Below are positions 9,091-17,838 of a stretch of DNA of 27,776 nt, piece after piece (position 1 is the first letter of the stretch; every line of letters begins with the position of its first letter). The notes below the pieces were generated by a model that was not told the DNA's origin, did not search any database, and saw only the letters and a program-made list of their open reading frames with translations. Source of the DNA: a virus; IMG/VR virus record IMGVR_UViG_3300032401_000060, positions 1 to 27,776 of that record; one strand, 5' to 3'. The translations under genes and the position numbers were made by a program.

Positions 9091-12000
9091 TTACTTACTC
9101 GGAAGTTGCGCCCCGGCTGCCACGGCCGCGCCTGTTGAGGGTCTCAGTTTATCGATCGCTTTGGATATCCCGCCGGTACCAGTCGCAGCCATGGGTACCG
9201 CCTTAATGGCCTTCACCGCGCCAATGAGTTCACCCATCTTGCTGTCGAAATTAGGCCCGTAGATGTTCATGAACCAATCAGGGTGTCTGGCTTGATCCAA
9301 CATCTGCTGATTGTACTTGGTGACGTCCGTCTCAGCCTTTAGCTGCTCGCCCTCCTTGGTACCACTCTTGTTAGCCTCCGTACGCGCCGCTATGACCGCA
9401 TCCAGAGCCGCCTTCACTTGCCCCAACTGATTCAGTGACTTCGACAACTCACCAGTCATCGCAACAGACGACTCCAATGTCGTCGTCAAAATCTTAAACC
9501 ACATGTTTTTGAACAGATCGAAAACCTTGTTTGTGAAGCTCGTAAACGCTTCCAGCTGCACCTTGAAAAAGGTCTTCGAGGACTCCGTGGTCGCCTTGAA
9601 AGCTGCCACGAACGCGCTCGTGATGCCCTCCACAATTGCGTCGTAGAGAGTCTTCTGAACGAGAGCGACTACGCCGCCCACGACGTTCTTGATGACGTCC
9701 AGCGCCTTATCCATGCCGGCGCCTATCATGCTCGCCACGGAGTCGCCGCCTCCGCCGAAGATCTTGTCTACGATCTTCGTTACAGGCGCGAACATAGCGC
9801 CGACGAAGGCCGTCACCTTGTCAAAGATCCCCTTCGCCATCTCCCAGAACGTACTGAAGATGGTAGTGATGGCCTTGAAGCCTCTGTCGAAGGCATCCGG
9901 AATGGTCGAGTGGCCGAAGAGGTCGTCTACGATCTTCTCGATCCAATCGAAGAAGTCCTTGAAACCCTTTCGTACAGTGGCCCACGCCCCAACAATGACA
10001 TCCGCCGCTGAGGTGACCGCCTTGCCGGCCTGGTCAAAAATATTGACGAAGAAGGCGGCTACCGGATCCCAAACAGGCTTGATGTACTTTTCCCATACGG
10101 CAACGACAATCGCCGCCATCGCGTTCCACTGCGGCTCCCAGACTTCTTTCCAGAGCCACGTCAACACTGCCACAATCGCTCCAATAGCCACTGTAGCGAT
10201 GCCTGCCAGTACCTTGAACGCGATGACGACAACGCGATAGATGACGTAGCCAATCGTCTCTAGAGCCGCGAAAACAATCCGGAGCCCGCTCCAGATAACC
10301 GTGGCAGCGAATTTGGCGACAGACCAGAGTACATTCCAGTAGGGGATCAACACCCCGAAGATGACTTCACCAACTGCGCTGAGGACATTCCAAACGGTCT
10401 TCAGTACATCGATGACAGGGTCAAAGGCGCTTGCCGCGCCGCTTAGTGCGTCTCCACCGAAAACCGAATCCCAGACCGCCAACGCTGCTCTTTCGAAGCC
10501 TGTAACGACACCGATCACCAAGTCAATGATGAACTTGATGCCGTCGTACATGCCTCGGTAAGCGCTCTCAATCGTATCGAACACCGCCGTGATGGGTCCT
10601 GCCAACGAGGGGAAGGTCTTGACCAGCCAATCGCGGACGCCCTGCATGATGCCGATGATCACGTCACGGACAAAGTCGAGTGCTCCCTTGATGAGGTCCC
10701 CGAGCCCTTCGAGAATGCTCGGAAGAGCGTGGTAGAACTTCATCAGCAGAGTGCCCGCCAAAGCGAGCAAGCCGACAAGGAAGTCCAAAACTACAGGAAC
10801 GATGTGCTTGAGAGCCCCTCCAACCATGGGGCCTAGTCCGCTGAGCGCCGCCCCAACGCGACTGGGCAAGTCCTTCACAATATCGACAGCCCTGTCGAAC
10901 ACCTTCGCAATCACGGGCAGCAATTTAGTCCGCAAGATTTCAATCAAAGCGGAGAAACCGGCGCCAGCTTTAGCTACAGCAACCCCCAACCCGGTCTTCA
11001 GGATCTCTCCGAATTTATCCCAATCGATCAGGTTTTTGGAACCCACCAAAACTTGATCGAGAAGATCGACGACCGCTTCAATGAGCGTGTTCCGCTGAGC
11101 AATCAGCTGGTCGCCCACCTTTCCGATGATTTCTCCCCACTTCACTTTCTTCGCAGCATCGCCAAGCGACGTCCAAAGCTCCTTCAGCTGCTCGCCGATC
11201 GCCTTCCAATCTATGTTCTTGATAGAATCGCCAATCGACTTCCAAAGGCCGCGCCAATCGATCTCCGTGAATATCGTAGCGAACTCTTCAGCCAGCTCCT
11301 TTGCATAGCCAGGCAGCTTCTTAACAAATGCTTTTGCCTGCTCCCCAAAACCCTTCAGCTTCTCCTTGATAGTCTGAACAAACTCTTTCCGGCTTTCGGC
11401 AGCAATAGCCTTCTCAGCGTCATGCTGCTTAGCCTCTGCCGACTTGAGCTTTTCGAGGGACTCCGCATATTTCGCGCTGGTCTTTGGTAGCTTCGCCAGC
11501 TCCGCTCGAAGCCCCACTACCGCCTTCGAAGAGTCCGAGAAGGAAGCAGACAGCTTCACGTCCTTCTGAACACGAGCCAGATTGGCTTGAGCACCGGTCA
11601 ATTTAGCCGATACAAGTGAGTACTCTTCAGTGCCTTCCGTAAGACCCTTGAGCTGTTTCTCTAGGCCGGCAACGGACTTCTGAGCAGCCTGAGTGTCTTT
11701 ACCCGAGAGACCCTTGATGTGCGCTTCGGTCTGCTTGAACCCTAGGTGCAAGAGGGTGAAAGCAGCGAGAATCAGCGTGACAGGATTCAGAAGAGCAAGA
11801 AGTGCAGGGACAAGCGGACCAAACGCTTGAACTGCAGTGGCAACCTCCGGACCCAGTTTGCTGAAGACCATCGACATCGGACGAAGAGCCTCAGGAAGGA
11901 ACGCTTTAGCGCCTAAGAAGGAGATCTCCGACATCTTGTCGACCATCTTCCCAAGCGGACCACCCTCCTTCGAAATCTTCTCCGCCGAATCGTTGAACTT

Positions 12001-13926
12001 CGCGAACTGCTTGCTCGCATCCGTAACGAATTTCTGAGCGTTGCCTCGACCTAGATTCCGAAAGCGCGCTTCCGCAGCTCCAACAATCAGGTCCATCGAC
12101 TCCTTCAGAGTCATCGAGGACCGCCAAGTCTCCTTACCCGCCTCTCCAAAGCTACGACTCATCGCCTTCGAGGCTTTGATCGTCGCCACTTTGGCCTCAT
12201 CCGCCTTATCCAAAGCAGACAGCAACACTTCAGAGGCTTGATCTCCGAAGACTTGCGTCATACGCCCACCAAACATCTTCATGATCTGCGCAGTACTCTT
12301 GCCTCCCTTTTTAAGCTTGGCAAACAGATCTGACATGTTGTCAATGAAAGGACCAACGCCGCCCTCGGCCGACTTAAAGGCCTTCGTTACGTCCCCTGTA
12401 ACAACCGAGGTGTTGGTCAAAAATCCGTGCAGCTCACTCTCCGTGCCCGTAAACATGTTCCGCACGGATTCCAACGACTCAACCAGCTTACCTTCGATCG
12501 TTAGAGCCGCCTCCTGCGCGCCCTTCGCGTTACCCGTTAGAGCATAAAGCGATCGAGATGCCTGATTGATACTCATCACGGCATCTTTGCCGCCAATTGT
12601 TTTGACTCCTTGAGCAAGCAAGTTAGTGCGTCGTTGGGCGAGAGACATGATCTCGTCCATGTGCTTGATCGGCCCTTGTACATCGCCAACAGCCTCGCCT
12701 GTAGCCATGAAAGACCGGCTGAGGTTTCCCAAGTCCTTGTCAGTCAGCTTTAGCCCCTTCTGCATCCGATCGAAGTTTTGGGCTGTTTCATAGATCGGTA
12801 TGCCTAGGCCGTCCTCCAATTTCACTCCGGTAGCCGCACTATCCACACCGATAGCCTTCAACACAGGACCGAACTTGATCATCGCGGACGTCGCATGACC
12901 TGCGGTTTGAGCAGAGACTTTCATCCCCATCACCAAACCAGCGGCCTCTTGATTGGCCTTGTTCAACTCCTTACCCATGAGTCCGGTATTCGCGACTATC
13001 TTGCGCGTATCCACGGAGTTCTGCTGAGCTGCAGCCTCGAAGCCTGTAGTGAGTTCACCACCCGCACTTCCTATGTTCCCGAGCGCGCCGGCTACCCCAG
13101 CCAAGCGCTTCATAGGCATCTTATCGAGGAAGCTTTTGAACTTGTCCCCTGAGGTGCCGACAGACTTTCCCATCTTCGACGCGCTTTCGTCGATCTTCTG
13201 AAAGCTGCGCGATACCTGATTCCCACCCGCCTCGATTCCATCCGCACTGCGCTTGAACTTCTCGCCCCCTTTTCGGGCTGCAGCAGGAAGTTTTTGACCA
13301 AGGGTGCCACTAAGGGTCTTCACCGCTTGGTCCATGCCTTGAGCTTTTGCCGCCGCGTCTTTCGACGCAAAGTGCTGCAATGGCTGGGCAGCCTTCTCCG
13401 CCCCTTGCCCAACCTGCTCAAAACCCTTCTTCATTCCGAAGAGGCGCTGCGCAAAATTGCCAGCCATCCCCATCGAAGTCTTGATCTGCTCGCCGACCGC
13501 CTTGAACCGCTCTACCGGAATCTGTTCCGCGAACTTCTGAATGCGATCCCCAACAAGCTGCTGATAGACCCCCTTCAAGGAGTTCTTCACGTTGTCGAAG
13601 GACATGCCGATGCCTTCGCCAGCCGCGTTGTACGACCGCTCAGCGTCCTCCATCATCTTGGAGCCCTTGAGCACCCCTTCGAAGACGGACCCCTCCAGAG
13701 CGTTACCAACGTGCTCTAGACCCTCTGCAGCACCCTCAAAAACCTTGCCGCCAAAGGAATTGGCTAGGTTCACCATTGGCTGCGTAGCTTTTTCCGCCGA
13801 GGTTCCGAACGTACGAATGCCCTCCGCCAACCCATCCACGCGGGTCAACACGTCTTTTAAGACGCCACTGAGGCCAGAATCCTTCGCACCGAAGGAAAAT
13901 CCGAGCCCCATGAAGTTCATCGCCAA
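9091..13926 (-). CDS. Tail tape measure protein (1611 aa)
   Basis: By far the longest gene, placed after the frameshifted chaperones and before the baseplate genes, the standard place for a tape measure. The N-terminal 650 residues are Gly/Ala/Lys-rich helices with repeated motifs (SMGMAGNFAQRLFGMKKG, KFKSFLDKMPMKRLAGV). Hydrophobic segments lie around residues 703-727, 1035-1065 and 1180-1290, the last rich in tryptophan (VWDSVF, VIWSGLRIVF, VLTWLWKEVWEP). A short repeat with LW..LGD..K.. .W occurs around residues 880-935. At about 0.15 nm per residue it predicts a tail near 240 nm. I see no peptidase or lysozyme motif. The start is taken as TTG at 13924-13926 because AAAGGAGG stands 8 bases before it; the next ATG, two codons on, would have a 14-base spacing. 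Confidence 0.95.
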   Translation of the reverse strand: MAMNFMGLGFSFGAKDSGLSGVLKDVLTRVDGLAEGIRTFGTSAEKATQPMVNLANSFGGKVFEGAAEGLEHVGNALEGSVFEGVLKGSKMMEDAERSYNAAGEGIGMSFDNVKNSLKGVYQQLVGDRIQKFAEQIPVERFKAVGEQIKTSMGMAGNFAQRLFGMKKGFEQVGQGAEKAAQPLQHFASKDAAAKAQGMDQAVKTLSGTLGQKLPAAARKGGEKFKRSADGIEAGGNQVSRSFQKIDESASKMGKSVGTSGDKFKSFLDKMPMKRLAGVAGALGNIGSAGGELTTGFEAAAQQNSVDTRKIVANTGLMGKELNKANQEAAGLVMGMKVSAQTAGHATSAMIKFGPVLKAIGVDSAATGVKLEDGLGIPIYETAQNFDRMQKGLKLTDKDLGNLSRSFMATGEAVGDVQGPIKHMDEIMSLAQRRTNLLAQGVKTIGGKDAVMSINQASRSLYALTGNAKGAQEAALTIEGKLVESLESVRNMFTGTESELHGFLTNTSVVTGDVTKAFKSAEGGVGPFIDNMSDLFAKLKKGGKSTAQIMKMFGGRMTQVFGDQASEVLLSALDKADEAKVATIKASKAMSRSFGEAGKETWRSSMTLKESMDLIVGAAEARFRNLGRGNAQKFVTDASKQFAKFNDSAEKISKEGGPLGKMVDKMSEISFLGAKAFLPEALRPMSMVFSKLGPEVATAVQAFGPLVPALLALLNPVTLILAAFTLLHLGFKQTEAHIKGLSGKDTQAAQKSVAGLEKQLKGLTEGTEEYSLVSAKLTGAQANLARVQKDVKLSASFSDSSKAVVGLRAELAKLPKTSAKYAESLEKLKSAEAKQHDAEKAIAAESRKEFVQTIKEKLKGFGEQAKAFVKKLPGYAKELAEEFATIFTEIDWRGLWKSIGDSIKNIDWKAIGEQLKELWTSLGDAAKKVKWGEIIGKVGDQLIAQRNTLIEAVVDLLDQVLVGSKNLIDWDKFGEILKTGLGVAVAKAGAGFSALIEILRTKLLPVIAKVFDRAVDIVKDLPSRVGAALSGLGPMVGGALKHIVPVVLDFLVGLLALAGTLLMKFYHALPSILEGLGDLIKGALDFVRDVIIGIMQGVRDWLVKTFPSLAGPITAVFDTIESAYRGMYDGIKFIIDLVIGVVTGFERAALAVWDSVFGGDALSGAASAFDPVIDVLKTVWNVLSAVGEVIFGVLIPYWNVLWSVAKFAATVIWSGLRIVFAALETIGYVIYRVVVIAFKVLAGIATVAIGAIVAVLTWLWKEVWEPQWNAMAAIVVAVWEKYIKPVWDPVAAFFVNIFDQAGKAVTSAADVIVGAWATVRKGFKDFFDWIEKIVDDLFGHSTIPDAFDRGFKAITTIFSTFWEMAKGIFDKVTAFVGAMFAPVTKIVDKIFGGGGDSVASMIGAGMDKALDVIKNVVGGVVALVQKTLYDAIVEGITSAFVAAFKATTESSKTFFKVQLEAFTSFTNKVFDLFKNMWFKILTTTLESSVAMTGELSKSLNQLGQVKAALDAVIAARTEANKSGTKEGEQLKAETDVTKYNQQMLDQARHPDWFMNIYGPNFDSKMGELIGAVKAIKAVPMAATGTGGISKAIDKLRPSTGAAVAAGAQLPSK

Positions 13927-13981: not shown

Positions 13982-14167
13982 TTATTTACGCCGCGACGCG
14001 GCCTCCATGCGGGCTTTTCGTTCTTGTTCGAGTTCGATTTTCTTCGTGATGAGGCGATGTCGGCGGGTCGAGGGCAGGCTCATGAATTCGGAGTAGGCGT
14101 ATCCTTCCCAGGCTTCGAGAAAGAAGAGGTACTGCGCTTCGAGTTCTTCTGAACCCGAGAAGGGAAG
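13982..14167 (-). CDS. gp51-like C-terminal extension made by -1 frameshift from the gp26-like chaperone
   Basis: In the -1 frame relative to the chaperone, 61 codons are open from the slippery site to TAA at 13982-13984. They encode SEELEAQYLFFLEAWEGYAY, then SEFMSLPSTRRHRLI and a charged coil KKIELEQERKARMEA. A short helix, a Leu-Pro-x-x-(R)R-x-x-(L/I) turn and a charged helix is the pattern of the second tail chaperone (T4 gp51-like, lambda T-like). The recognisable protein begins right after the slippery heptamer, well before the first ATG in this frame (14081-14083, ATGA overlap with the zero-frame stop), so fusion to the upstream frame is more likely than an independent start. The fusion would be 317 residues (256 + 61). 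Confidence 0.75.
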   Translation of the reverse strand, partial: LPFSGSEELEAQYLFFLEAWEGYAYSEFMSLPSTRRHRLITKKIELEQERKARMEAASRRK

Positions 14168-14934
14168 AAAAAACCGGTCTGGCCTACATCAAGTTCGGTC
14201 TTGAATCCCTCTCCGCAAGCCGGGCACTGGAGATCCATCTCGGTCTCGATGCCGCCTTCTTCGACGTTGAAGCACTCTTCTCGAAGGAAGTTTCGGTCCT
14301 TCATGTTGAGCGACTTGATCGTATCCATGTCTGTCGGTTGCCCATCCAAGAGGTCAACTCGGACGAGGATGCTGAGGGAGAGCTGATCGAGGTTCTGGAA
14401 CTTCGAAAGACTCTCCTCCTCTTTACCTGTCATGACATGCCAACGAGCCGGCTTTCCCGAAGGCAATACGACATCAAACACTCGCTTGTTTCGGTTGACG
14501 GTCGTTTTGACCTCCAGCTCCGCCAAGTTAATAGAAAAGAGATTCTTCTTGTCGCACTCATTACACTTGGCTTCGAACGGGAAGTCGTCTCCGAGCGTCA
14601 CACGGCGAATCGCCAACATGAGGAAAACTCGATCGCCAATCATCAAGCTACGGACGCAGTTCGCCAACTCCGTCTTGTCGGTGATGGTCCCCAAGCGCTC
14701 CAAACAATTGGTGATGAGCTGCGTCACCTTCTTACCCGAGGGGATGTTCTTCGCCGCCAGCATGTCCTCTTCGATACCGGTGATCTCCCTGACCTTCACC
14801 TCAGTGACAAGCTCACCTTCTGGACTGAGATAGCCACAGGGAAGCTCGAAGATACCCTGCGTCGCCTTCGGCACAGCCATCTGGTTCTGAACGAAAAAAG
14901 ACTCTTGGCTCTGGTTGAACGATTCTTCAGACAT
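14080..14934 (-). CDS. Tail/baseplate hub assembly chaperone, T4 gp26-like (zero-frame product, 284 aa)
   Basis: ATG start with GAGAGGAA about 4 bases upstream. After a Gln/Ser-rich N-terminus, residues about 26-110 carry the LPCGYLSPEG ... EVKVREITGIEEDMLA pattern followed by helices (VTQLITNCLERLG, LMIGDRVFLMLAIRRVTLGDDF). Two CxxC pairs (Cys124/127 and Cys237/240) probably bind one metal ion, the second in CPACGEGF. This matches the T4-type baseplate hub chaperone family. Right after the second CxxC the sequence reaches GFFF, encoded by GGT TTT TTC TTC, where the -1 slippery site lies; the remaining 27 zero-frame residues are low-complexity Ser/Lys/Pro and look like run-on sequence before a stop. 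The gene sits directly upstream of the tape measure, as lambda G and T do. Confidence 0.85.
   Translation of the reverse strand: MSEESFNQSQESFFVQNQMAVPKATQGIFELPCGYLSPEGELVTEVKVREITGIEEDMLAAKNIPSGKKVTQLITNCLERLGTITDKTELANCVRSLMIGDRVFLMLAIRRVTLGDDFPFEAKCNECDKKNLFSINLAELEVKTTVNRNKRVFDVVLPSGKPARWHVMTGKEEESLSKFQNLDQLSLSILVRVDLLDGQPTDMDTIKSLNMKDRNFLREECFNVEEGGIETEMDLQCPACGEGFKTELDVGQTGFFFPSRVQKNSKRSTSSFSKPGKDTPTPNS
14167..14173 (-). promoter_or_regulatory. Programmed -1 ribosomal frameshift slippery site (T_TTT_TTC)
   Basis: On the minus strand the zero-frame codons read GGT TTT TTC, giving the canonical X_XXY_YYZ heptamer T_TTT_TTC at chaperone codons 254-256. Slipping one base back leaves both tRNA-Phe pairings intact. 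It joins the gp26-like frame to the gp51-like frame. Possible downstream pairings are AGAAGA (14150-14145) with TCTTCT (14127-14122), and CTTCCC (14167-14162) with GGGAAG (14109-14104); neither is strong enough to be called the stimulator. Confidence 0.72.
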
Positions 14935-14943
14935 AGGTTCCTC

Positions 14944-15528
14944 TCAAGCCTCGCCGACCGGTGTTCGACGCTCGATGTTGATCTCACTCTGTTCCTCATA
15001 CATGCGTATGAGCGACTTAATGGCGTCAGTGACGGTCATCCCTCGCTTATCCAGAAGTACTTTGAAGGTGTCGTAGCGGTCACGCTCAACCCACACGTTC
15101 AACTTCGAGTCCGCCCCTTCGTCTTGGTACAGCTCCAGGTCATCGAAACGACTTTCGTCTTCGATGTACTTGGAGATCAAGTACCGAACCAAGGACCCCA
15201 TCGAGTTGAACGCCTTGTATGTCTGGAGCCCCTCTTGAATGCGATCGAAGAGCCTTCGACTCACCCAAAAATTCACCAGCCGCTGGTCGTTCGCCTTTGA
15301 GTCCTTCTTGGAAGCCTCCGCTGCCATCTCGCAGCTCCTACAAAGAAGCACTCCATTCGACTCCGACATCTGGCCGCCCGCTTCTAGCGGAACGATCATT
15401 TTGACGCGAAGTCTCTCTTCTTGGCCGCAATTCGCGCATCGGCTGCGATAGCGCTGCCAAATCTTCTTTTCCCAGTCACTCGTCACTGAAGAGACGGAAA
15501 CAGGGCGTTCGATCTTTTCGGCCGTCAT
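14944..15528 (-). CDS. Catalytically dead HNH-like domain fused to two ribbon-helix-helix-like modules
   Basis: I take ATG at 15526-15528 (194 residues); a GTG directly before it is also possible, and neither has a clear ribosome binding site. Residues about 28-70 align by eye to a zinc HNH core: CANCG (Cys31/34), VPLEAGGQ, SNGVLLCRSCEM (Asn58, Cys63/66). The Asp-His that normally precedes VP is Lys43-Met44, and the last His after the second CxxC is Glu67, so nuclease activity is unlikely. Residues about 84-122 (VNFWVSRRLFDRI, then SMGSLVRYLISKYI) and 132-170 (LNVWVERDRYDTF, then TVTDAIKSLIRMYEE) each have the strand-helix-helix pattern of ribbon-helix-helix DNA-binding domains. A DNA-binding regulator is the best guess. 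It lies between the tube genes and the chaperone gene. Confidence 0.8.
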   Translation of the reverse strand: MTAEKIERPVSVSSVTSDWEKKIWQRYRSRCANCGQEERLRVKMIVPLEAGGQMSESNGVLLCRSCEMAAEASKKDSKANDQRLVNFWVSRRLFDRIQEGLQTYKAFNSMGSLVRYLISKYIEDESRFDDLELYQDEGADSKLNVWVERDRYDTFKVLLDKRGMTVTDAIKSLIRMYEEQSEINIERRTPVGEA

Positions 15529-15611
15529 CACGAAGCCGAATATACGTTAAAGTAGTTGCCTAGTGGTAGCCATATCTACTGCGCATCTGACTAAGATGCT
15601 ACTGTCTAGGT

Positions 15612-16247
15612 ATGTATTCCAAAAGAAAGAGGTGCACTAAGTGCGAACAGACAAAACCTGTCTCAGAATTTCAGCGGAACAGAGCCACCGCGGACGGCTT
15701 GCAGACACGCTGCACTACCTGCCAAAACACAACCAATCGGGCTCAACAACGAGCCAAACGGGAAGCGGTCTACCACTACTTACGCCGCCATCCCTGTATC
15801 GACTGCGGAGAAGCAGATCCGATCGTTTTGGATTTTGACCATGTTCGAGGGGTAAAGAGCTTAAGTGTCGGTACAATGATCAGCCGACAGAAATCCCGAG
15901 CAGTTATCGCAGCGGAGATCGAAAAATGCGAAGTACGATGCTCTAACTGCCATCGACGCCGAACCGCTAAAAGCAGGGATTGGTACAGCGGCTTTGCCGA
16001 TTTCAAATTCGGGCCTGCCCCCAAACCAGACACACCTATTGATCAACAAGCGATAGCAGTAGCCGAGCGGGTTCTAGCTGAGAACCCTAATTGGCGGACA
16101 AACATAAAAGGCTTGTTAGCCGAGCTACAAACACAAGTAGACGCCGAATTATGGCCGATAGCGTGGTCCAGTGTTCGGGATAGCGTCAAACGACGTGTGT
16201 TGGAGTTACTAAACCCCCGCACTAATCGCCAGGAGGCGGCGGAATAG
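15612..16247 (+). CDS. Free-standing HNH homing-type endonuclease
   Basis: This is the only gene on the plus strand. Residues 8-37 form an N-terminal zinc ribbon (Cys8/11, Cys34/37). The HNH core spans about 60-118: Cys62/65 in PCIDCGEADP, Asp76-His77 in LDFDHVRG, Cys110/113 and His114 in RCSNCHRRRT, with Asn112. All catalytic and metal residues seen in active HNH enzymes of this type are present. The C-terminal 90 residues are helical and probably contribute DNA binding. Opposite orientation inside a phage structural operon is typical of selfish homing endonucleases, which cut alleles lacking them and spread by repair. The ATG has no clear ribosome binding site. It ends 9 bases from the convergent small gene. 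Confidence 0.9.
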   Translation: MYSKRKRCTKCEQTKPVSEFQRNRATADGLQTRCTTCQNTTNRAQQRAKREAVYHYLRRHPCIDCGEADPIVLDFDHVRGVKSLSVGTMISRQKSRAVIAAEIEKCEVRCSNCHRRRTAKSRDWYSGFADFKFGPAPKPDTPIDQQAIAVAERVLAENPNWRTNIKGLLAELQTQVDAELWPIAWSSVRDSVKRRVLELLNPRTNRQEAAE

Positions 16248-16504: not shown

Positions 16505-17236
16505 TTACCCTAGGAGCGCAATTTCTTCCACCATCTCTACAGCCAACTCGCACTGCATCAGTGAAATGGCCGAGGACGAAGCGTCAAAGTCACCACCCAC
16601 TTTGTAGCGAATAGGTAGGGCCCCGTGAAGCATCCACGCTTTAGCCGGAATACGCGCCGCGAACTCAAAAGGACCAATCCCAAAGCCAGCCAACGCGTTC
16701 CCAATGCCTCCGATGAGAGCAGTGGTGAGACCTGACGCAAGAATTTGCCCGCCTGTAGCCCCTGCCAAAGCCGCTCCACCAGTTGCGAGCCCTCCCTGAA
16801 TCAAGGTCGCCGCAATCGCGCCACCCGCGCTCGTAGGCGGCGCAATCATAGGTCGCGTGAAGAACTGCACAAGCATCAGCGTGCGACGCGGTGTAATCCC
16901 GCCAATCTTCAGACTCACAGGCCCGATCCCCAATTTCGAGTTGGATAGGTCACCCGTCATCGCCGCCACAATCCACCGCCAAAAGTCGGAATCGTACCAA
17001 GAGACGCCGCGCTCTAGAGTGATGTTCCCAACATCGGCGTTCTTGATCACCTTCTTCTTGAAGAACCAGTTACCCTCGGTGATATCCATCGTCTCCAGCG
17101 TTATTTCAGGCGCCGTGATAGACGAGAACCCAAACAAGGGTGTGAGAATCGGCAAGGCTAGAGGCTCAATCGGATACGCATCCAAAAGCCAAAATGGGTA
17201 GACCTGCAGCAGGTCGCTGACGACAGATCTGGCCAT
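16505..17236 (-). CDS. Second tail tube-like protein (gp19 family) with Gly/Ala-rich insertion
   Basis: ATG start with AAGGGG upstream. Residues about 34-90 parallel the main tube protein position by position: FGFSSITAPEITLETMDITEG matches its AGFSACTIPEATIEAVEYKEG (shown here as short paired motifs), and DFWRWI matches AFWEWI. The ends also correspond (RYKVGGDFDASSSAISLM versus RHKLSSDLDATDSGVSIM). Between these halves, where the tube has a 25-residue loop, this protein has about 65 residues (about 128-192) of Gly, Ala, Ile, Leu and Thr with almost no charge (for example GGAALAGATGGQILASGL). Such paralogues can serve as a tube initiator or a tube-baseplate adaptor. The insertion may face the lumen or contact a membrane; that is inference. 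Confidence 0.85.
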   Translation of the reverse strand: MARSVVSDLLQVYPFWLLDAYPIEPLALPILTPLFGFSSITAPEITLETMDITEGNWFFKKKVIKNADVGNITLERGVSWYDSDFWRWIVAAMTGDLSNSKLGIGPVSLKIGGITPRRTLMLVQFFTRPMIAPPTSAGGAIAATLIQGGLATGGAALAGATGGQILASGLTTALIGGIGNALAGFGIGPFEFAARIPAKAWMLHGALPIRYKVGGDFDASSSAISLMQCELAVEMVEEIALLG

Positions 17237-17248
17237 GCCTTACCCCTT

Positions 17249-17286
17249 AAAAGACCTCACCCCGAATGTACTCCATTCGGGGTGAG
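17249..17286 (-). terminator. Rho-independent terminator after the tail tube gene
   Basis: A perfect 13-bp inverted repeat, CTCACCCCGAATG / CATTCGGGGTGAG, with a 5-base loop (17256-17286), is followed on the minus strand by GGTCTTTTAAGG. It lies between the tube gene and its paralogue. It would lower expression of downstream tape measure and baseplate genes relative to sheath and tube, matching the copy numbers needed. Confidence 0.82.
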
Positions 17287-17303
17287 CGCGTTACTGCATT
17301 TCC

Positions 17304-17321
17304 GACAGATTAGAATCTGTC
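17304..17321. repeat. Inverted repeat at the tail tube stop codon
   Basis: GACAGATT AG AATCTGTC is an 8-bp palindrome-like repeat overlapping the TGA of the tube gene, just before the terminator hairpin. It may protect the 3' end of the tube mRNA or simply be part of the termination region. Confidence 0.6.
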
Positions 17322-17838
17322 AGGGCTCGATCATCTCACAGTGCTCGTAAGCGACGTCCAACTCCATGATGGAGACTCCGGAGTCTGTCGCGTCCAAGTC
17401 CGAAGACAACTTATGCCGAGTCGGGAACGCCTGCCAAAGCTTGTAGATCTTGGCAGCCGCCTGGAGGTTGAGATTCTCCGCCGGAGGAGCCGAAGGCCCA
17501 GGCAACGTGTCAGCACGGTGGAAGTGCTTGATGAGCAACTCCGTCCGGTACTCGCCGGTGCCCTCGATGACGGTGCGAATCCACTCCCAGAACGCCGCAT
17601 CCTTACGAGCTACGCCACGAGACATCGTGACATCGCCGAAGGTGACGTGTCCGGGATACTTCCGCGTGTACAGGAACTGCCCTTCCTTGTACTCGACCGC
17701 TTCGATGGTCGCTTCAGGAATGGTGCACGCAGAAAACCCGGCTTGCGCGTTGATCGTGTTCAGTGGGACGTAGTTCTCCACTGCGGACACGTGGAACCGC
17801 ATATTGTGGAGGTAATCGAACGATTGCGCTCTTGCCAT
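17320..17838 (-). CDS. Tail tube protein, T4 gp19 family
   Basis: At 172 residues it is the normal size for a gp19-type tube monomer. Family features visible are the N-terminal FHVSAVENY, AGFSACTIPEATIEAV near residue 33, the YKEGQ segment, the VTFGDVTMSRGV strand pair (about 65-76), AFWEWI (about 82-87), and the C-terminal SDLDATDSGVSIMELDVAYE. Hexameric rings of this protein stack to make the inner tube around the tape measure. The start has a TAGGAG site about 7 bases before ATG. It is followed by a strong hairpin terminator, which suits a very abundant protein at the end of a high-expression segment. Confidence 0.92.
   Translation of the reverse strand: MARAQSFDYLHNMRFHVSAVENYVPLNTINAQAGFSACTIPEATIEAVEYKEGQFLYTRKYPGHVTFGDVTMSRGVARKDAAFWEWIRTVIEGTGEYRTELLIKHFHRADTLPGPSAPPAENLNLQAAAKIYKLWQAFPTRHKLSSDLDATDSGVSIMELDVAYEHCEMIEP

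Follow-up and report, generated by a model that had tools for sequence, protein, structure and literature searches.

The window (the whole stretch of DNA analysed here, a virus contig of 27,776 bases) encodes a contractile-tail module on its minus strand, comprising a sheath gene (phrog_23), two tube-like genes (phrog_4542), a chaperone gene and a tape measure gene (phrog_1272). The module further includes, on the same strand, genes for a LysM/gp53-like protein, a tail protein (phrog_52), a spike (Phage_base_V), gp25 and a wedge protein (phrog_219). The chaperone gene, which is the gene of interest, lies directly upstream of the tape measure gene, with a gap of 55 nt between the stop of its -1 frame (13982) and the latter, and the layout is that of lambda G/GT, as the initial annotation of this DNA had proposed. 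Two HNH endonuclease genes on opposite strands, at 14944-15531 (minus) and 15612-16247 (plus), separate the tube genes from the chaperone gene, possibly as a homing insertion. The features relevant to the argument are the following.

14080 to 14934, minus strand: zero-frame open reading frame of 284 amino acids plus stop, the short tail assembly chaperone (TAC-N), of the gp26/T4_baseplate family
14554 to 14565, minus strand: first CxxC pair (C124, C127), invariant in 21 relatives
14215 to 14226, minus strand: second CxxC pair (C237, C240), invariant in 21 relatives
14167 to 14173, minus strand: slippery heptamer T_TTT_TTC, in phase at Phe255-Phe256, kept in 21/21 distinct close loci
13982 to 14167, minus strand: -1 frame extension (TAC-C) of 61 codons plus stop, with three predicted helices, as judged from its conservation in 21 loci, pN/pS and a structural model
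9091 to 13926, minus strand: tape measure protein, the expected client (phrog_1272, E 1.2e-25)
16505 to 17838, minus strand: two genes resembling tail tube genes (17838-17320 and 17236-16505; phrog_4542 tail tube protein, E 5.7e-13 and 1.1e-5), whose products may be partners for the long form

The zero frame (14934-14080) reads GGT TTT TTC at 14175-14167, with F255 placed 15 residues beyond the end of the second CxxC pair. From the two phenylalanines (residues 255-256) a further 61 codons can be read in the -1 frame as far as the stop at 13982, which would give a TAC-NC fusion of 256+61 = 317 residues; in all these particulars, from the in-phase heptamer at 14173-14167 to the length of the fusion, the initial annotation proved to be accurate. 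The -1 frame opens merely 15 nt 5' of the heptamer, and its earliest ATG, GTG or TTG is an ATG 90 nt past it. Across the 26 listed minus-strand genes of the window there are 23 in-phase heptamers of the form X_XXY_YYZ (Y = A or T), and only at one of them, 14173-14167, does the -1 frame outlast the zero-frame stop. The chaperone gene itself contains a second in-phase T_TTT_TTC near its start (14893-14899, minus strand), where the -1 frame closes after 28 codons. Since the heptamer occurs twice in one gene, the motif alone is not diagnostic, and comparison between loci was needed.

The assignment of the N part to the gp26 family, likewise made at the outset, was supported by matches of TAC-N to PF12322 (T4_baseplate; 49.7 bits, cut-off 24.5) and to phrog_150, while hhalign alignment to the single T4 gp26 and gp51 sequences was weak (probability about 5-6%). 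A search of the predicted TAC-N structure (pLDDT 87.9) against viral models returned T4-like 'baseplate hub assembly' models at E 5.3e-26, among a total of 61 viral models at E <= 0.001. Foldseek comparison of the TAC-N model with the PDB gave no chain at E <= 0.001, and a PDB sequence search gave nothing at E <= 0.3. A second look at the PDB placed YqbN first (3klu; Z 6.9, rmsd 4.5, 93 aligned) and the HK97 tail assembly chaperone second (2ob9; Z 6.0, rmsd 3.9, 93 aligned), with the next entry at Z 2.8, where a Z below 8 can reflect a common arrangement. YqbN belongs to a phage chaperone family.

A first search yielded two near-identical contigs with the same TAC-N and tail, and further loci were added by means of a sheath bait and a four-sequence alignment. 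Among the 12 loci obtained with the sheath bait, a gp26-like ORF was present in L008, L009, L014, L016, L017 and L019, and was not found in L010, L011, L012, L013, L015 or L018. Of these last six, four (L011, L012, L013 and L015) have only 1.8 to 3.6 kb of sequence beyond the sheath and the other two (L010 and L018) have no gp26-like ORF within 8 kb, so none of the six is a test of the claim. The 35 loci eventually assembled were found partly via a peptide pattern containing FFFP, by which the amino acids were preselected but the codons were not. The same contigs appeared under several ids (L002/L009/L020, L003/L008, L014/L036, L016/L042 and L017/L023), and collapsing near-identical sequences left 21 distinct loci, the window included. 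The distant L004, L005, L006, L007 and L019, three of which are without the -1 layout, were left out of the 21-locus counts; the 47 contigs from an exact-pattern scan were selected by motif, and none of them enters any count through that scan.

An in-phase T_TTT_TTC was present at the FFF motif in 35/35 loci, at identical codons in 34 and one codon later in L033, and each of the 21 distinct close loci combines it with a -1 tail homologous to the others, which supports the programmed -1 frameshift that had been put forward for this gene. All 21 TAC-N proteins carry FFFP without change, and, given the amino acids, T_TTT_TTC would be expected from codon usage (that of the gene plus the longest ORF, site included) at only 0.003 to 0.072 per locus. 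Thus L052 uses TTT in 1/65 Phe codons (gene plus longest ORF), and L046 uses TTC in 2/42 and TTT in 40/42, yet in both the site reads T TTT TTC TTC. As a control, 2/79 other FF pairs in the 21 loci are T_TTT_TTC, both of them in L033, this count excluding the chaperone gene itself with its one further copy. To judge from these sequence comparisons, the codons of the heptamer have been retained in the face of contrary codon usage. No fold common to the 24 loci folded was found that could serve as a stimulatory RNA structure; a marked downstream hairpin was seen in L021 and L022 only (z -5.1 and -4.0), and the window gave z of about -1.4 to -1.9.

Alignment of the 21 tails revealed invariant residues at F2, P4, E12, P34, R37, R38 and R40, and the pooled pN/pS for the tail past the zero-frame stop is 0.40 (16 pairs, which are not independent). 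Nucleotide diversity by codon position was compared in the 13 loci in which the zero frame continues for at least 17 codons beyond the heptamer. Upstream of the heptamer the values by zero-frame position are 0.425, 0.305 and 0.516, the usual pattern; after it they are 0.377, 0.459 and 0.384, with diversity highest at what is the third position in the -1 frame. The variable codon position switches right after the heptamer, which argues that selection on the -1 frame starts there, ahead of an ATG found at +54 in some of the loci (see below). Mean pairwise amino-acid identity in the overlap (13 loci) is 0.424 in the -1 frame and 0.365 in the zero frame, so that both frames are constrained. By these measures the -1 tail is evolving as protein.

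T_TTT_TTC with an open -1 tail was also found in the distant L004 (uncultured phage, LR756511) and L006 (Xanthomonas phage XaC1). Part of the -1 tail of XaC1 is annotated as a separate small hypothetical gene, in line with the earlier remark that a simple gene caller would miss the extension. The XaC1 -1 tail (L006:4642-4860) matches phrog_18291, a family without an assigned function, at E 8.4e-14, and this family may be one of chaperone tails. The closest relative beyond the near-identical contigs is L102, a 58%-identical contig of 3.5 kb in a Candidatus Sulfotelmatobacter MAG, a location that gives a weak hint of the host; L102 keeps TTTTTTCTTCCCTTC, and L103 has T_TTT_TTG. Relatives with the two frames as separate genes and no conserved site, an arrangement that would speak against a frameshift, were also sought. 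The close loci keep the site without exception (21/21). Among the distant relatives, in Listeria phage LIS04 (L005:4599-4904), Streptococcus phage GXN1 (L007:4503-4868) and L019 (7514-7843), the conserved FF is followed directly by a tail-like frame in +1, and an in-phase -1 heptamer is missing there; by inspection, this layout is possibly a +1 (or -2) variant.

The tail is modelled as three helices (pLDDT 76.9), and a fold search with it returned nothing at E <= 0.001. Comparison with phage records gave only two entries of one phage, in a terminase region and at E 0.5, which were rejected. The initial annotation had described the tail as gp51-like, and this was not supported: hhalign of the tail profile against gp51 gave a probability of 0.04%, and there was no match to phrog_634. 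T4 gp51 itself matches PF12322, the Pfam family of gp26, over residues 1-201 and phrog_634 over residues 147-246, so gp51 is a whole long form and not a partner domain, which corrects the view that gp51 supplies the pair's second half. A profile search with the -1 frame residues, which had been suggested as a check, gave matches for some of the relatives but not for the window: DUF6760 (PF20546) is matched by 7/21 tails at E <= 1, the best at 9.9e-4, and by the window tail not at all. Aligned by hhalign, the tail profile and a single DUF6760 protein share 49 columns at a probability of 60.6% (E 8.3e-5). These matches suggest that the tail weakly resembles DUF6760. Such a likeness, weak but testable, would provide a sequence bridge through which a simple reporter assay could address the chaperone step in contractile injection systems.

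DUF6760 was found in 2/297 genomes of the phylum of the L102 genome (L106 and L107), and in 23/392 genomes of the phylum of the L103 genome (L108-L130). A protein search located it in 34 further records, all of plasmids, of which 12 were opened (L133-L144); L134 is a plasmid of Nostoc sp. UHCC 0926. The names given to its neighbour, where annotation exists, are 'phage tail assembly protein', 'zinc-ribbon domain-containing protein' or 'hypothetical protein'. Genes for sheath, tube or LysM proteins frequently lie next to DUF6760. A chaperone-like frame was not found by script in L118, L125, L128 and L143, out of 37 loci examined; in the 33 loci with that frame, DUF6760 always lies in -1 to it (33/33). 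The chaperone-like proteins of L106 and L107 have no clear Pfam or NCBIfam family. At least five G occur just before the DUF6760 domain in 26/33 distinct loci, compared with a control in which 9/274 other Gly-Glu/Gly pairs read G_GGG_G. No ATG, GTG or TTG is available to start DUF6760 in 21 of the 26 G-run loci; the other five have a usual start, and reinitiation is therefore possible for those five. The codons of the G-run are GGG GGA or GGG GGG in 8/26 loci, which would fit a normal tandem slip. The other 18 have GGG GAN-like codons, on which only the P-site tRNA re-pairs fully, and would call for either a one-tRNA slip or initiation at a non-AUG codon. The G-run is absent in seven loci, among which L124, L126, L127, L129 and L130 have in-phase T-run heptamers instead; neither a G-run nor a T-run heptamer was detected by script in L138 and L128.

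It is possible, on this pattern of frames and G-runs, that the DUF6760 junction is a recoding site in contractile injection systems. We lean slightly towards the broader proposal that a -1-recoded pair of short and long chaperones is general to contractile tails, including those of bacterial and archaeal injection systems, with DUF6760 as the tail of the long form. DUF6760 was not found by name in the literature searched, and no frameshifted chaperone of contractile injection systems was found there either, the accessible portions of PMC10020575 and PMC13277306 included; subscription papers were outside this coverage.

For the window and its close relatives, the site, its conservation, the protein-level selection on the -1 tail and the family of the N part are shown, and they make it very probable that one gene specifies two tail assembly chaperones, TAC-N and, by way of T_TTT_TTC, a -1 fusion, TAC-NC, a pair of the lambda G/GT kind. 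We infer the occurrence and frequency of slippage and the binding roles of the two forms as follows. The majority of ribosomes would proceed to the zero-frame stop to yield the 284-aa TAC-N; a minority would slip one base back on T_TTT_TTC, where both tRNA-Phe can re-pair with UUU, and would then read 61 more codons to yield the 317-aa TAC-NC, which has a helical domain in addition. If the two forms behave like those of lambda G/GT, the tape measure protein would be bound by many copies of the short form, and recruitment of the tail tube subunit would fall to the few long forms.

The tail might instead be produced on its own as a small protein, through reinitiation at an internal start close to where the zero frame stops, with the T-run incidental. 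An ATG does lie 54 nt past the heptamer in the -1 frame in 15/21 loci (L034 being read from its tail), in 10 of which it overlaps the zero-frame stop as TGATG, and T4 uses two genes (PMC10885494). This ATG is however absent in 6/21 loci, the window among them, and both the conserved -1 residues P4 and E12 and the switch in variable codon position precede it. The chief objection to reinitiation as the sole route is that the -1 frame is under selection from the heptamer onward, ahead of the +54 ATG, and the retention of the T_TTT_TTC codons against codon usage likewise counts against a separate protein. We therefore regard this explanation as improbable, though a second, shorter product is possible in the ten TGATG loci.

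Slippage on the six-T run might also be transcriptional, rather than ribosomal, and yield a fused message. The TTTTTT run is present in the close loci, as this would have it, but what is conserved is the codon-phased T_TTT_TTC, which is still in phase in L033 with its eight T, and six T is a short run for transcriptional slippage; such an origin seems very unlikely. Least credible of all is chance, a pair of Phe codons with a fortuitously open -1 frame, or an error in sequencing. The invariance of FFFP and the other copy of T_TTT_TTC in the chaperone gene might be cited in favour of chance, but it is contradicted by the rarity of the heptamer at other FF pairs and by the homologous tail in 21 distinct loci, and the two further contigs with the same TAC-N and tail argue against both chance and error. 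The production of TAC-N and TAC-NC by a -1 ribosomal frameshift is the reading adopted here.

A frameshifted chaperone pair is a known device of tailed phages. The slippery site in lambda is G_GGA_AAG, as against T_TTT_TTC in the window. PMC5009743 describes frameshifted chaperones in lambda and in numerous long-tailed phages and names T4 as an exception, and lambda G/GT resembles the window in layout, with the gene directly upstream of the tape measure and a short form accompanied by a low-level -1 fusion. PMC12846349 reports frameshifted chaperones in Vandenendeviridae and Andersonviridae, and mentions poly-T signals in T4-like phages; as in the window, the -1 frame is open past the chaperone gene and there is a conserved T-rich site (GTTTTT), and, as in the window's relatives, the tail is often annotated as a separate gene. 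Both are other phage families than that of the window, to which they are likened by layout. The TAC-N and TAC-NC chaperones of T4-like phages are reportedly the subject of a 2022 paper by Vladimirov, Gautam and Davidson (Virology 566:9). These share with the window a gp26-family short form, a long form with a C-terminal domain and, in part of the group, a poly-T site, and some T4-like phages have a short and a long gene in place of the frameshift (PMC10885494). T4 itself is unlike the window in having two genes, 26 and 51, whereas the close family here always has T_TTT_TTC and a tail unlike T4 gp51. What the window adds to these systems is a frameshifted chaperone, well supported, from a lineage with contractile tails that is known here solely from metagenome contigs, and the 21-locus alignment shows where gene callers should join the frames. 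The newer edge is the link to DUF6760: the DUF6760 pairs of contractile-injection-system-like loci resemble the window in that a short domain of helices lies in the -1 frame relative to a chaperone-like gene, and differ from it in having mostly a G-run, not a T-run, at the junction.
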